In this document: positions 12,993 to 41,725 of the stretch, piece by piece
Layout: every line of letters begins with the position of its first letter
Numbering within the stretch: position 1 is the stretch's first letter
Source of the DNA: a bacterium
GTDB taxonomy: Bacteria > Bdellovibrionota > Bacteriovoracia > Bacteriovoracales > Bacteriovoracaceae
Length of the DNA stretch: 56,662 nt
Reading direction: 5' to 3'
Assembly: GCA_030425045.1 (NCBI GenBank)
Contig: JAUHVL010000018.1
Coordinates: forward strand, 1 to 56,662
The notes under the pieces: model-generated
What the model saw: the letters and a program-made list of their open reading frames with translations, nothing else
What the model was told of the DNA's origin: nothing
The model's database searches: none
Position numbers and translations under genes: made by a program

Positions 12993-13152
12993 GGAGGAAA
13001 AAGAAGAGGAATCTCTATAATTATAGCAACTTAGATTATTTAAATACTGATAAAATGGCGTTTCAAGCGACTCTAAAAATGGGCGAAATAAGCTCTTAAA
13101 CTAATCCCTTTAATTCGAGATAAGTATTCAACGTAAACTCGTATCATTTATA
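12993..13152. other. intergenic segment without recognisable features
   Basis: Together with the repeat copy at 13153-13367 and the ~55 bases after it, this makes a 482-base gene-free stretch. I see no open reading frame with a ribosome binding site, no strong hairpin and no tRNA-like fold in these 160 bases. Confidence 0.4.
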
Positions 13153-13367
13153 AAGTTCCAAATACTTACAAAAGAATTAAAACTTCCATGTTTTGCGATA
13201 ACCAATATCGGGACATCCTTGTCCCGACCCTTCGGGCAAGTATTGGTCATCTCCTAATTCAAAAAAATAAGAGGTATTTAAAACTTGCCCACGAAGTGGG
13301 TGCGACCACGACGGGAGCATTTTAAATGTCTAAAAACAGGGACGTTTTTATAGGATTATCAAAAATA
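13153..13367 (+). repeat. structured intergenic repeat, copy A
   Basis: About 215 bases aligning over their whole length with copy B at 39361-39576, including a 33-base identical block (13295-13327). Helices that can be drawn: 13201-13207 with 13241-13247; inside it 13208-13215 with 13220-13227 (8 bp, loop tcct); 13273-13283 with 13320-13330 (11 bp, two GU-type pairs); inside that 13288-13292 with 13296-13300; and a terminal 7-bp hairpin 13331-13337 with 13344-13350. GGGCAAG (13234-13240) can also pair with CTTGCCC (13284-13290), a possible pseudoknot or alternative state. It lies between two minus-strand genes, 55 bases past the stop of the HD phosphohydrolase gene. I do not recognise it as a known RNA or mobile element. 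The plus orientation is arbitrary. Confidence 0.8.
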
Positions 13368-13421
13368 GTTTCAGTTTCAAAAATGAAACATATCCATTTA
13401 AGAGCATCATTTCACTAAGCT

Positions 13422-14879
13422 CTACAAACTAGCGTCACTTCCATTTTTTGAAAGATCATGAATCATACCAGAGTCCACTAAGAGTTTATAAGCTCCAAGT
13501 GAAACAAAAACATTGGGGATATAATTATTGGTATTATTTAACCGAGAGATAATGGAATTATCGAGTTCTGCGAGTAACTTCACACTACCATCGTCACAGC
13601 TAATCTTGACGGGGTCTCTTTCTAGTAAAATATTTTCTTCGGTTTTATTTTCGATGATGCTCTTAGGTGATTTAACAAAGCTGATTTCTTTTTTCGGAAG
13701 ATCAGAGATAATCCAGTCTTCAGAGCTTCCTTTTTCTTTCAAGAAAGCTTCTATTTCTTCAACCTTCTTCTCAATTTTTTTGAATAGTTTTTGGTTAGAA
13801 ACTTCATCATCTTTATTAAGAAGGATTTTTTGCAACTCATTAGTTTGAATATGCCTAGCATCTCCAGCAAATATCAGGGTCTGGGCCATATTTTTGATCT
13901 TGGGGTATTTATCAAAGCCACCATTCATATACTGAGTGTGAACGAGGTTGATAAAATAACTATCATTAAAGCCCCAAAAACGCTCGGGCTCATTTGTGAT
14001 CATTTCAAGTAAATCGCTATAACGATAAATTAAATTCTTCTCTAATAAGAAAAAACATATATGTTCTGCAATGGCATCATACTTAGCACCTCGTGGAGAA
14101 CGAACAACTTGAGAGTACCAAGCAAAGCGAGACATTAAAAAATCTTCAATACAGTTGAGAGCGTTTTGTTTAATAGTGAGAATATCATGGTTACCAACTC
14201 TTCTTGGCTTAAAGTGATGAAGAAGATAATCACGATCATAAGAGCCATACTTAAGCCCTGTATAATGGGCATCACGTAGGAGATAATCCATTCGATCACA
14301 ATCGATTTCGGAATGAAGAATCTGATTGGCCATAATAGAAGGATCCGTTCCTTTTACGAGGTCAGAGATAATCTGTGGATCATATCCATATTTTTTTAAA
14401 ATATAAGTAACTCCTCCCGGATAATCTGTATTTTTAATAATAAAAGATCCCAGATTTTCATGGTCATCTTTTAAAACGGAGTTTTTACTTTTCTTTTTTG
14501 TCTCACCAAAATCAATATATGCTCCCTCAGTGGTATGAGAGAAACAAAATGTTCCAAGGTCGTGCATCAAAGCACCGAGGCGGATTTGCTGGTGGTATTT
14601 TTTCTCTGGCGTCAGGTCACTGGGATCCATTAACTGTTCGTCGGTGACGGCGCGACCACAAGATTGAATAATTCGATGCCCATTCTCCATCACTCCAATC
14701 GAGTGACCGTAACGGGAATGCTCTGCTCCTGGAAAAACATAACTAGAAAACCCCAGTTGTTTAATCCAACGAAGTCTCTGATAAAATGGGCTGAAAATAA
14801 TTTCTCTTTCGACTGGTGTTAAGTGAATAAAACCATAAAGAGGATCGTATACTGTCGCAGTTTTGTAACCAACATCCAT
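13422..14879 (-). CDS. HD-domain (dNTPase/SAMHD1-like) phosphohydrolase
   Basis: The N-terminal half is an HD domain of the dNTP triphosphohydrolase/SAMHD1 type: H54 in EHSRYGHSIGV, H106-D107 in LMHDLG, and the distal aspartate region SEIDCDRMDYLLRD (about 190-203), which also includes the family's DRMDYL block. Such enzymes hydrolyse dNTPs to deoxynucleosides and triphosphate or related substrates. The conserved start DPLYGFIHLTPVE matches the family, so the ATG at 14879 is firm. Residues ~330-485 are variable, with a helical charged segment. It lies 12 bases after the 70-residue gene, probably co-transcribed with it. Confidence 0.88.
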   Translation of the reverse strand: MDVGYKTATVYDPLYGFIHLTPVEREIIFSPFYQRLRWIKQLGFSSYVFPGAEHSRYGHSIGVMENGHRIIQSCGRAVTDEQLMDPSDLTPEKKYHQQIRLGALMHDLGTFCFSHTTEGAYIDFGETKKKSKNSVLKDDHENLGSFIIKNTDYPGGVTYILKKYGYDPQIISDLVKGTDPSIMANQILHSEIDCDRMDYLLRDAHYTGLKYGSYDRDYLLHHFKPRRVGNHDILTIKQNALNCIEDFLMSRFAWYSQVVRSPRGAKYDAIAEHICFFLLEKNLIYRYSDLLEMITNEPERFWGFNDSYFINLVHTQYMNGGFDKYPKIKNMAQTLIFAGDARHIQTNELQKILLNKDDEVSNQKLFKKIEKKVEEIEAFLKEKGSSEDWIISDLPKKEISFVKSPKSIIENKTEENILLERDPVKISCDDGSVKLLAELDNSIISRLNNTNNYIPNVFVSLGAYKLLVDSGMIHDLSKNGSDASL

Positions 14880-14891
14880 GTTGAAAAAGTC

Positions 14892-39360: not shown

Positions 39361-39576
39361 TAGTTCTAAATAATTACATAAACATGTTAAAACATTCATG
39401 TTTTGTGATAACCAATATTCGGCCATCCATGGCCTCACCCTAACGGGCAAGTATTGGCCATCTCTACGATTAAAGCGAAAAGATATTTAAAACTGGCCCA
39501 CGTAGTGGGTGCGACCACGACGGGAGCATTTTAAATATCGAAAAACAGGGATGTTTTTTAGGACTTTTAAAAAATA
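39361..39576 (+). repeat. structured intergenic repeat, copy B
   Basis: Second copy of the element at 13153-13367, same orientation. Equivalent helices: 39412-39417 with 39452-39457; inside it 39421-39425 with 39430-39434 (ggcca/tggcc, where copy A has a different but also perfect stem); 39482-39492 with 39529-39539 (11 Watson-Crick pairs, where copy A uses two GU-type pairs); 39497-39501 with 39505-39509; and a terminal hairpin 39541-39547 with 39552-39558. The 33-base identical block is 39504-39536. It sits in the 400-base gap between the kinase start and the lipoprotein gene and ends about 4 bases before that gene's stop. The remainder of the gap (39231-39360) shows nothing I can name. Confidence 0.8.
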
Positions 39577-39579
39577 TTT

Positions 39580-40104
39580 TTAAATTTTTATTGTTTGCGC
39601 TTTAAATCCTGGAAAAGTCAGACTTAAATCCTTCTTCTCGAAGCTCTCCTGACAGATCCCATCAACTTTATAGAGCTGAAGTCGCAACATTTCATAATCT
39701 GGGTGCATCTTTAAATTTCTTTTAAACTCTCTCAGAGCGAACCTACTGTGAGCTTGATCTTTAAACTGATCTATCATGTCTTGCTTACTTATTTTTTCAT
39801 CGTCCTGAGCATAAGTCACAGCAACAAAGCTATCTTTACATCTTGCCATGGCCTCTTTCTCCGCCTGAGAAAACCAATTATAGTAGGGTGAATTTTTATC
39901 AATCCGAACGGCCAAAATATCATAGACGAGAGTTAATTCTTTATACCAAGAAAAGCGCTGAAAAACTAAGTCATCTTCCCACTGAGTATTTCCGGCTTTA
40001 CCAGAACTAATTTCAAATTCACCGTGACGAACAAAGTTCTTTGATAAATTTGAACAAGCCGATGATAATAAAAGAATGAGAGCTAAACCTAAATATTTCT
40101 TCAT
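39580..40104 (-). CDS. lipoprotein of unknown function
   Basis: 174 residues with a lipoprotein signal, lipobox SSAC (Cys17). The mature part is charged and helical (YNWFSQAEKEAMARCKDSFV, DQAHSRFALREFKRNL), with no recognised family. It overlaps the alpha/beta-hydrolase-like gene by 4 bases, and both follow the GYF_2-PilZ gene, so all three are one transcript. Anchored in the inner or outer membrane. Confidence 0.75.
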   Translation of the reverse strand: MKKYLGLALILLLSSACSNLSKNFVRHGEFEISSGKAGNTQWEDDLVFQRFSWYKELTLVYDILAVRIDKNSPYYNWFSQAEKEAMARCKDSFVAVTYAQDDEKISKQDMIDQFKDQAHSRFALREFKRNLKMHPDYEMLRLQLYKVDGICQESFEKKDLSLTFPGFKAQTIKI

Positions 40105-40892
40105 TTTATAACTTCTTTAAACCATTTTCCTATAGAAGCCATTATATCCTCAGATTGCTCACTTTGAAAAAGCCAATGTCCTAAATCTTGATACTCGATA
40201 ATCGTTTTATACTTAGAGTCGATCGATTGAGTAAATTTCCGCGTATCTTCCAGTGAATAGAACGATGATGCGCCCCCCGTCATTACCATAATTGATTTAT
40301 CAACTAGACTCCCCCAACTAAGAGCAATGGGGCCATCGAGGTTAACCAGACCAAAAAGGCGAAAACTAATTTTTTTACAATTCAGAGGATCTTCTTTCAT
40401 CTGAGGTGTAAAAAGTTTTTCTGCATTCGTATAGGGAACTTTTAATTTTCCTAAAGGGCCATTGAGAATATAGGCCGAGTCTTTAAAGCCTTTTGTAAAA
40501 TATTCTTTAAAAGAAAAGAAGGGATTACATAAAAACAATCCCTCAACATTTTTTGAAAAGCGATTTCCAAATTTAAAATAAACTTTTAAAGCAAGTAAGG
40601 CCCCAAAACCATAACCACCAAGAATAATTTTCTTGTTGGGTTGCTGGTCGATATAATTGGAAATCTCAAGACAAAATTCATCGAGGTCGTCGAGATGCCC
40701 TCTGGTTCCGCCACTTAAGCCAAACCCGGGAACATCAAATAACGTTGTGGACACCTTATTTTTTGTTATTTCATTTATATAATTTCCTAATGAAAGGTAG
40801 GATTTATGGTAGTCCCAAAAATCATGAAAAAAAATGAAAAGATGAGAGGAAGAATGATCTCCCAATTCTTTTTTATAAATTTTTTCTTTCAC
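40101..40892 (-). CDS. alpha/beta-hydrolase-fold protein lacking the nucleophile
   Basis: 263 residues resembling lysophospholipase/monoglyceride lipases: LFDVPGFGLSGGTRGHLDDL matches their PGHGXS-GXRGH block, and DLGHWLFQSE near the end supplies the catalytic histidine. The nucleophile elbow, normally GXSXG, reads GYGFG at 93-97, so the serine is a glycine (codon ggt, not near a sequencing ambiguity that I can see). It is probably non-catalytic, or uses another residue. No signal peptide. It is joined by 1-base and 4-base overlaps to the PilZ and lipoprotein genes. Confidence 0.75.
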   Translation of the reverse strand: MKEKIYKKELGDHSSSHLFIFFHDFWDYHKSYLSLGNYINEITKNKVSTTLFDVPGFGLSGGTRGHLDDLDEFCLEISNYIDQQPNKKIILGGYGFGALLALKVYFKFGNRFSKNVEGLFLCNPFFSFKEYFTKGFKDSAYILNGPLGKLKVPYTNAEKLFTPQMKEDPLNCKKISFRLFGLVNLDGPIALSWGSLVDKSIMVMTGGASSFYSLEDTRKFTQSIDSKYKTIIEYQDLGHWLFQSEQSEDIMASIGKWFKEVIK

Positions 40893-41725
40893 TACTCTGC
40901 GCTACTTTGAATATATTGATGAATAGAATTAACTGCTTCTTCATTGAGATCTTCAAACCTTAACGAGAAACCTCTCTCTCCATCGAGAGTTCTCACAACT
41001 TTCCCCCGAGCAACAAAGTGATAATCCGAGTTGTCTGGATGAACATTTAAGTTAACTTCATCGCCCACCTGAACCGGACAATCTGAAACTAAAAGCTGTA
41101 AGCCTCCTACAGAAATATCACGACAAATTCCCTCGTAAACCTGTTCGTTGTCGTGAAAAAAGAGTCTTGCAATAAAAGGTCTTCTTTTATTAATTCTTCT
41201 ATCATGATCTTCAATGGTCGGAGGTAGTCCTCCCGTAATCTTTTGATAAATGGGTGTATCACCAAAAAACATCCAATCGTCTAAGCCGGGAGTAAAAATA
41301 AATGTCTTTTCGTTGATACGATTTTCACTTAGTGCTTTTCGCAATTGATTGATGGTAAATGGGCCATATTCTGTTTCGTGTCCTCCACGATCTAATCCGA
41401 TTTTAATCGAAATGACAGGATCTTCTTCTGAAATATTATCCCAATTAAAGGAGTCATTTGAACTTTTTGAAAGTGGAGGAATTTGCATAAAAGGATCAGT
41501 TTCTTTTTCAAAGTCCTCTTCAGCGTCAACAGCTGAGGTTTCGGGAGGATTCATCACATCAGAAAGCTCTTCTACATCTTTTAAAAACTTCCAATTATCA
41601 AAGCCTTTTTTCCAGACGTAACTATCTTCATTTAACTCCCCAGCAGAGAAGAGTTGTGATAATTTATCCTTATCAACGGGACCAACTCTTTCACTTCCTT
41701 GTACATAATACCAACTAGAGTCCAT
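40892..41725 (-). CDS. GYF_2-GYF_2-PilZ protein
   Basis: Two GYF_2 (DUF4339) modules at about 4-50 (WYYVQGSERVGPVDKDKL, WKKGFDNWKFL) and 104-158 (EYGPFTINQLRKAL, GLDDWMFF) flank an acidic linker, and a PilZ domain covers ~174-275. The c-di-GMP motifs are intact: RXXXR at 177-181 and DXSXXG at 203-208. No membrane segment, so it is a cytoplasmic c-di-GMP effector that probably binds proline-rich partners through GYF_2. The ribosome binding site gaggaagg is strong. It leads the operon with the hydrolase-like and lipoprotein genes. A sister GYF_2 protein is encoded at 55297-56136. Confidence 0.9.
   Translation of the reverse strand: MDSSWYYVQGSERVGPVDKDKLSQLFSAGELNEDSYVWKKGFDNWKFLKDVEELSDVMNPPETSAVDAEEDFEKETDPFMQIPPLSKSSNDSFNWDNISEEDPVISIKIGLDRGGHETEYGPFTINQLRKALSENRINEKTFIFTPGLDDWMFFGDTPIYQKITGGLPPTIEDHDRRINKRRPFIARLFFHDNEQVYEGICRDISVGGLQLLVSDCPVQVGDEVNLNVHPDNSDYHFVARGKVVRTLDGERGFSLRFEDLNEEAVNSIHQYIQSSAE

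Follow-up and report, generated by a model that had tools for sequence, protein, structure and literature searches.

The genome of this Bacteriovoracaceae-related bacterium was found to contain at least 52 full-length copies, plus fragments, of a small mobile DNA element whose middle encodes, on both strands, the same predicted folded RNA module with loops that match the binding site of the global regulator CsrA. A transposon therefore appears to have scattered putative CsrA-binding sites across the genome, whereas binding and titration of CsrA are inferred and not shown. The analysis started from two copies, A (13153-13367) and B (39361-39576), in a window of 56,662 nucleotides, which is the whole stretch of DNA analysed (contig JAUHVL010000018.1 of assembly GCA_030425045.1).

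The two copies were reported in a sequence-only reading as a structured intergenic element with compensatory base changes, and this observation was confirmed. Copies A and B were found to align over ~215 bases, including an identical block of 33 bases, AGTGGGTGCGACCACGACGGGAGCATTTTAAAT. The 11-bp helix contained two G-U pairs in copy A and Watson-Crick pairs in copy B, whereas the inner hairpin kept its stem with different bases. The ccc/ggg and cccac/gtggg stems and the aaaac/gtttt end hairpins were found to be present. The similarity was far beyond chance, as BLASTN returned 42 matches in the same 3.97-Mb draft genome, with the best non-self match at 6.6e-87. A covariance model built from 24 of these matches was found to hit 52 full-length cores, one internally deleted copy and seven pieces at contig ends. 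Many contigs ended inside a copy, and the number is therefore a minimum. Loci L032 (G000:C35:42183-42626) and L023 (G000:C79:34836-35274) were found to contain tandem pairs of cores about 45-110 bp apart, and in L032 both cores were followed by the same sequence, which suggests recombination between copies.

The interpretation given in the sequence-only reading was partly supported. Selection on RNA or single-stranded structure was supported by compensatory changes in several stems, invariant loops, strand-specific G-U use and conserved modules between a diverged linker and diverged flanks. The statement that the element matches no known RNA held at Rfam gathering scores, as a search of the whole window returned no hit above threshold, whereas the GGA hexaloops match the CsrA site and TwoAYGGAY was found to be the nearest family. 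The suggestion of a non-autonomous mobile element was right, whereas the IS200/IS605 type was not. The pseudoknot between GGGCAAG and CTTGCCC was not supported, as this pairing arises because the left half is an inverted copy of the right half. A single closed fold with a P1 stem joining the ends was also rejected, as pairs 6-167 and 10-163 failed in 14 and 19 of 24 sequences, respectively. The long pairing between the two end hairpins failed mostly at the two freely varying loop positions, and it is not what is conserved.

Positions of the features in the window, with the strand on which each feature is read
Position	Strand	Feature	Support
13088-13096		Left target-site duplication of copy A (ATAAGCTCT)	9-mer repeated at 13415-13423 as CTAAGCTCT (1 mismatch)
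13097-13414	+	Copy A, ~318-bp non-autonomous IS1-type element (MITE), ends TAAACTAATCCC...CATCATTTCA	Same ends and length (~317 bp) as copies with perfect 9-bp duplications
13415-13423		Right target-site duplication of copy A (CTAAGCTCT)	
13179-13251	-	Module read on the minus strand in copy A: 11-bp stem with hairpins P4' and P5', then the GGA end hairpin (reverse complement of 13179-13194)	Model R2, built on the plus-strand module, hits 13197-13252 on the minus strand at 30.8 bits; folds to the same architecture, z -4.6
13213-13222	-	CsrA-type hexaloop ACAAGGATGT in P5'	
13182-13191	-	CsrA-type hexaloop ACATGGAAGT in the minus-strand end hairpin	
13252-13271		Linker between the two modules (diverged between copies)	0.58-0.60 mean identity against 0.86-0.95 in the modules
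13272-13349	+	Module read on the plus strand in copy A: 11-bp stem 13273-13283/13320-13330 with hairpins P4 and P5 (tandem G.A), then end hairpin 13332-13349	
13336-13345	+	CsrA-type hexaloop ACAGGGACGT in the plus-strand end hairpin	
39389-39462	-	Minus-strand module of copy B; P5' loop CATGGATG at 39424-39431; its end hairpin has lost GGA (ACATGAATGT)	R2 hit of 24.6 bits on the minus strand
39481-39558	+	Plus-strand module of copy B with hexaloop ACAGGGATGT at 39545-39554	
13422-14879	-	HD-domain gene whose 3' end abuts copy A	
39580-40104	-	174-aa ORF of unknown family whose 3' end lies 21 bp from copy B	

The outer layer of the element was found to be a ~317-bp non-autonomous IS1-type transposon (MITE) with the terminal inverted repeat (TIR) AAACTGAT... 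and 9-bp target duplications. Copies aligned with their flanks shared the ends TATAAACTGAT...ATCAGTTTATA, about 317 bp apart, and no transposase gene was found inside. Eleven copies with AAACTG/CAGTTT ends contained a perfect direct duplication just outside (9 bp, one 10 bp), for example TAAAACTTA, TAAGAAATA, TAAGAATTT and AATTATTCA, and locus L046, with weaker TIRs, is a twelfth if counted. Copy A contained an 8/9 duplication, whereas copy B had lost clear ends. One IS1-like element elsewhere in the genome (C82) was found to begin with AAACTGCTGGCTTTAATTGGATA, which is related to the MITE terminus AAACTGATNNNYTTAATTGGA, and to contain a matching right end and its own 9-bp duplication AAAAAATTA. 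The best family for its transposase was NF033558 (IS1) at 1.1e-17 and 64.6 bits, below the 100-bit cut-off of that model, as in a divergent IS1-like group. Divergent single-ORF IS1-like transposases (~285-320 aa) with AAACTG termini were found to be abundant in this phylum and to fall below the NCBIfam IS1 cut-off. The recent copies are therefore read as IS1-type MITEs, whereas it is inferred that this transposase moves them.

The inner layer, a core of ~170 nt, was found to be an inverted dimer of one ~75-nt module, in the order minus-strand module, linker and plus-strand module. The covariance model R2, built on the right-hand 59 nt, hit the left half on the opposite strand in every one of the 13 copies tested (24.6-34.7 bits). 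Each module contained an 11-bp stem enclosing the hairpins P4 and P5, followed by the end hairpin AAAAC-ANGGAN-GUUUU, so that a transcript of either strand would carry one correctly oriented module. The plus-strand module, the minus-strand module and the monomer from another genus were predicted to fold to the same architecture, with z-scores from -3.2 to -5.0. The decisive sign was strand-specific wobble. Every wobble in the right stem was G·U on the plus strand (64 against 0 A·C), whereas every wobble in the left stem was G·U on the minus strand (71 against 0). Compensatory changes were found in the right stem (five pairs), in the left stem and in the P5' stem, whereas the P5' loop was nearly constant. 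The right-half P5 contained tandem G·A pairs (GCGA...GAGC).

The modules were found to be conserved at ~90% identity where the linker and the flanks had diverged. In a second subfamily of 11 copies the mean identity was 0.32-0.53 in the flanks and 0.58 in the linker, whereas it was 0.89-0.95 in the modules. In subfamily 1 the respective values were 0.60-0.67, 0.60 and 0.86-0.93. Several copies kept only the core. Gene conversion between copies could raise identity, although it would not spare only the modules, and the drift of linker, TIR and flanks around retained modules is hard to explain by recent transposition or gene conversion alone.

Both end hairpins were found to contain ACA-N-GGA-N-GU in almost all of 53 copies, with variation concentrated at the two N positions, whereas the P5' loop on the minus strand contained CA(N)GGATG in 50 of 53. 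Most plus-strand P5 loops had lost GGA and contained CGA or TGA instead, leaving one full site on that strand. The cores contained 2-4 sites against 0.12 in shuffled cores. The published CsrA SELEX consensus is RUACARGGAUGU, with invariant ACA and GGA and hexaloops closed by AC/GU (PMC7652899), and high-affinity sites are described as CANGGANG-containing apical hexaloops (PMC4894983). The loops of the element therefore match the CsrA site in sequence and predicted structure. The genome was found to contain one csrA (PF02599, 91 bits) next to fliW and a flagellin-like gene. On the minus strand of locus L079 the top Rfam hit was TwoAYGGAY, aligned over both GGA hairpins at 21.7 bits against a threshold of 43 bits, and no hit to this family passed the cut-off in six genomes. 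On motif evidence the element would work like a CsrA-binding RNA, whereas it is not a TwoAYGGAY member by threshold. Two further motifs of this type were found in the window. At 14872-14881 on the minus strand, ACATGGATGT, a CANGGANG hexaloop on a CAAC/GUUG stem, overlaps the start codon of the HD-domain gene, although about two such 10-mers are expected by chance in the window and the hairpin was not more stable than shuffles. At 41693-41702 on the minus strand, ACAAGGAAGT was found in the early coding region of ORF 40892-41725, with no hairpin predicted.

Outside this genome, R2 was found to hit three copies of a monomeric module at 51.5 bits in a Bacteriovoracaceae MAG (G054) that had not been used to build the model. 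The module in this MAG contained both GGA loops and was located 3' of an IS1-like transposase gene, between the gene and the right TIR. Genome G130 (JADGAM01) contained a related stem domain at 55.5 bits, although it was in the training set, whereas genomes G035 and G287 contained one at 38.7 and 31.1 bits, respectively, and other hits in the phylum were weak or partial. A palindrome AAACTGTAATTACATAAAAATTTTATGTAATTACAGTTT with IS1-like AAACTG ends was found near the module in JADGAM01 (locus L147, 6700-6760). In a relative (locus L155, 1470-1520, G011:C79) the hairpin GGCGTCATTTATCAGGATGGTAAATGACGCC was found next to TGCGACCAGGATGGGAGCA, giving two neighbouring hairpins with CAGGATG, possibly another CsrA-binding RNA. 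The RNA is not a fixed part of all IS1-like elements, as the ordinary IS1-like elements examined in related genomes ended without it. A search of 85k species with the 20-base P5 pattern returned only two Bdellovibrionota MAGs plus two probable chance coding matches, and no match was found in viral contigs. A 22-base match to the P5 pattern in the Aeromonas ribD region (locus L146, 3523-3544) was the reverse complement of codons for CSHHGRTP in a ribD-like gene and was judged to be a coincidence.

Of 46 cores with genes called on both sides, 26 were found between convergent genes, 17 between co-directional genes (7 ++ and 10 --, without orientation bias) and 3 between divergent genes. Convergent gaps made up about 5 of 50 in the window by a count from the ORF list, and the binomial p was about 7e-15 against 10% and 5e-6 against 25%. 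This position fits a 3'-end role on either strand, whereas it also fits simple avoidance of promoters and genes, and the bias can arise simply because insertions elsewhere are harmful.

The best explanation, held at a probability of about 0.6, is a MITE-dispersed, bidirectional CsrA-binding RNA module at gene 3' ends. The analysis itself established the MITE anatomy and copy number, the IS1-like element with a related TIR and its own duplication, the inverted-dimer RNA module with constraint on both strands, the CsrA-type loops as a match of sequence and structure, and the presence of csrA. It is inferred that the transposase of this element moves the MITE, that read-through transcripts of genes next to a copy expose two full sites on the minus strand and one on the plus strand in most copies, that CsrA binds these sites, and that the copies together act as a distributed CsrA decoy and/or local 3'-end regulator. 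In this view, selection has kept the module in old copies whose transposon ends have decayed. The lack of orientation bias among co-directional genes, the lack of an identified conserved promoter, the loss of GGA from most plus-strand P5 loops and the TwoAYGGAY score far below its cut-off speak against this explanation. A more far-reaching reading, which remains tentative and less likely than not, is that a transposable element has turned into a distributed, bidirectional CsrA sponge, in which scores of copies at gene 3' ends would expose CsrA-binding hairpins on whichever strand is transcribed, so that genome-wide read-through would set free CsrA.

Among other explanations, a functional RNA that is not a CsrA site but a bidirectional 3'-end element, such as a transcription terminator, RNase barrier or processing site kept between convergent genes in the manner of REP or Correia repeats, is unlikely but the strongest of the rivals. 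The enrichment between convergent genes and the presence on each strand of a module ending in a hairpin followed by U-rich sequence agree with it, and transcripts of known MITEs form stable stem-loops, with SPRITE being terminator-like (PMC10969869). However, the end hairpin is mostly A-U and weak for an intrinsic terminator, and a terminator needs no invariant ANGGAN loop, whereas the loop bases are invariant except at the two N positions that the CsrA consensus also leaves open, and the P4/P4' loops vary. A purely selfish MITE, in which the module is conserved only for binding by transposase or a host factor during transposition and old copies are not under selection, is less likely still. 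The clear transposon anatomy and the related module inside an autonomous IS1-like element favour it, whereas the decay of TIRs and flanks in subfamily 2 around conserved modules, the lack of the module in the ordinary IS1-like elements of the phylum examined and the strand-specific G-U tolerance, which points to single-stranded RNA, speak against it.

Independent trans-acting sRNA genes with their own promoters, as in an RsmX/Y/Z-like multicopy family, are about as doubtful. Copies were found in both orientations relative to their neighbours, and AATACT was found at a fixed distance of 15 nt upstream of both subfamilies, whereas no recognisable -35 partner was seen by inspection, no conserved promoter was identified and the motif was absent from several old copies. 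The IS200/IS605-type element is very unlikely, as only the terminal hairpins agree with it, whereas 9-bp target duplications and TIRs with IS1-like partners were found.

CsrA antagonist RNAs are known mainly as a few sRNA genes in Gammaproteobacteria, and how CsrA is buffered in FliW-type genomes is less clear. A transposon that spreads CsrA-type hairpins to more than 50 gene ends, on both strands, would be a concrete case of mobile DNA building a post-transcriptional network in predatory-type bacteria, where lifestyle switching is central, and CsrA CLIP peaks at the copies and dependence on GGA would be expected. The opposite G·U bias of the two halves also shows how an inverted-dimer design can be recognised. 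MITEs and CsrA-type GGA-hairpin RNAs are both known, whereas no description of their combination in this arrangement was found, and literature searches for MITE-borne CsrA sites or Bdellovibrio-group repeats returned nothing matching.

The antagonist sRNAs CsrB/CsrC and RsmX/Y/Z, which are CsrA sponges, contain repeated GGA hexaloops on short stems that match the CsrA consensus, as found here. They are a few dedicated sRNA genes, whereas the sites here were scattered in more than 50 transposon-borne copies, one or two per strand, on both strands. TwoAYGGAY RNA (Rfam RF01731), itself proposed to bind CsrA, also contains two GGA hexaloop hairpins, with tandem G·A pairs reported in one of its stems (PMC4333381). 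It is known from human gut samples, gammaproteobacteria and Clostridiales (PMC2864571) and is not reported as an inverted dimer or as mobile. The IS1-family MITEs are likewise non-autonomous, with a TIR and a 9-bp target duplication, and the genome here contains an IS1-like transposase as the inferred partner, whereas the element here carries a conserved structured RNA module that outlives the transposon ends. REPIN/BIME, ERIC, Correia, SPRITE and BOX repeats are inverted, palindromic, multicopy intergenic elements whose transcripts fold. No CsrA-type loops were described for them in the literature read, the repeated unit here is a three-hairpin module plus end hairpin that lacks an obvious REP motif by inspection, and the mobilising enzyme, by inference, is IS1-like. 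The flaA mRNA of Campylobacter, another CsrA-FliW organism, contains two GGA hexaloops and acts as a CsrA sponge in a genome without antagonist sRNAs (PMC4894983), which makes the proposed role plausible, although it is one highly expressed 5'UTR whereas the copies here are many, dispersed and mostly near gene 3' ends.
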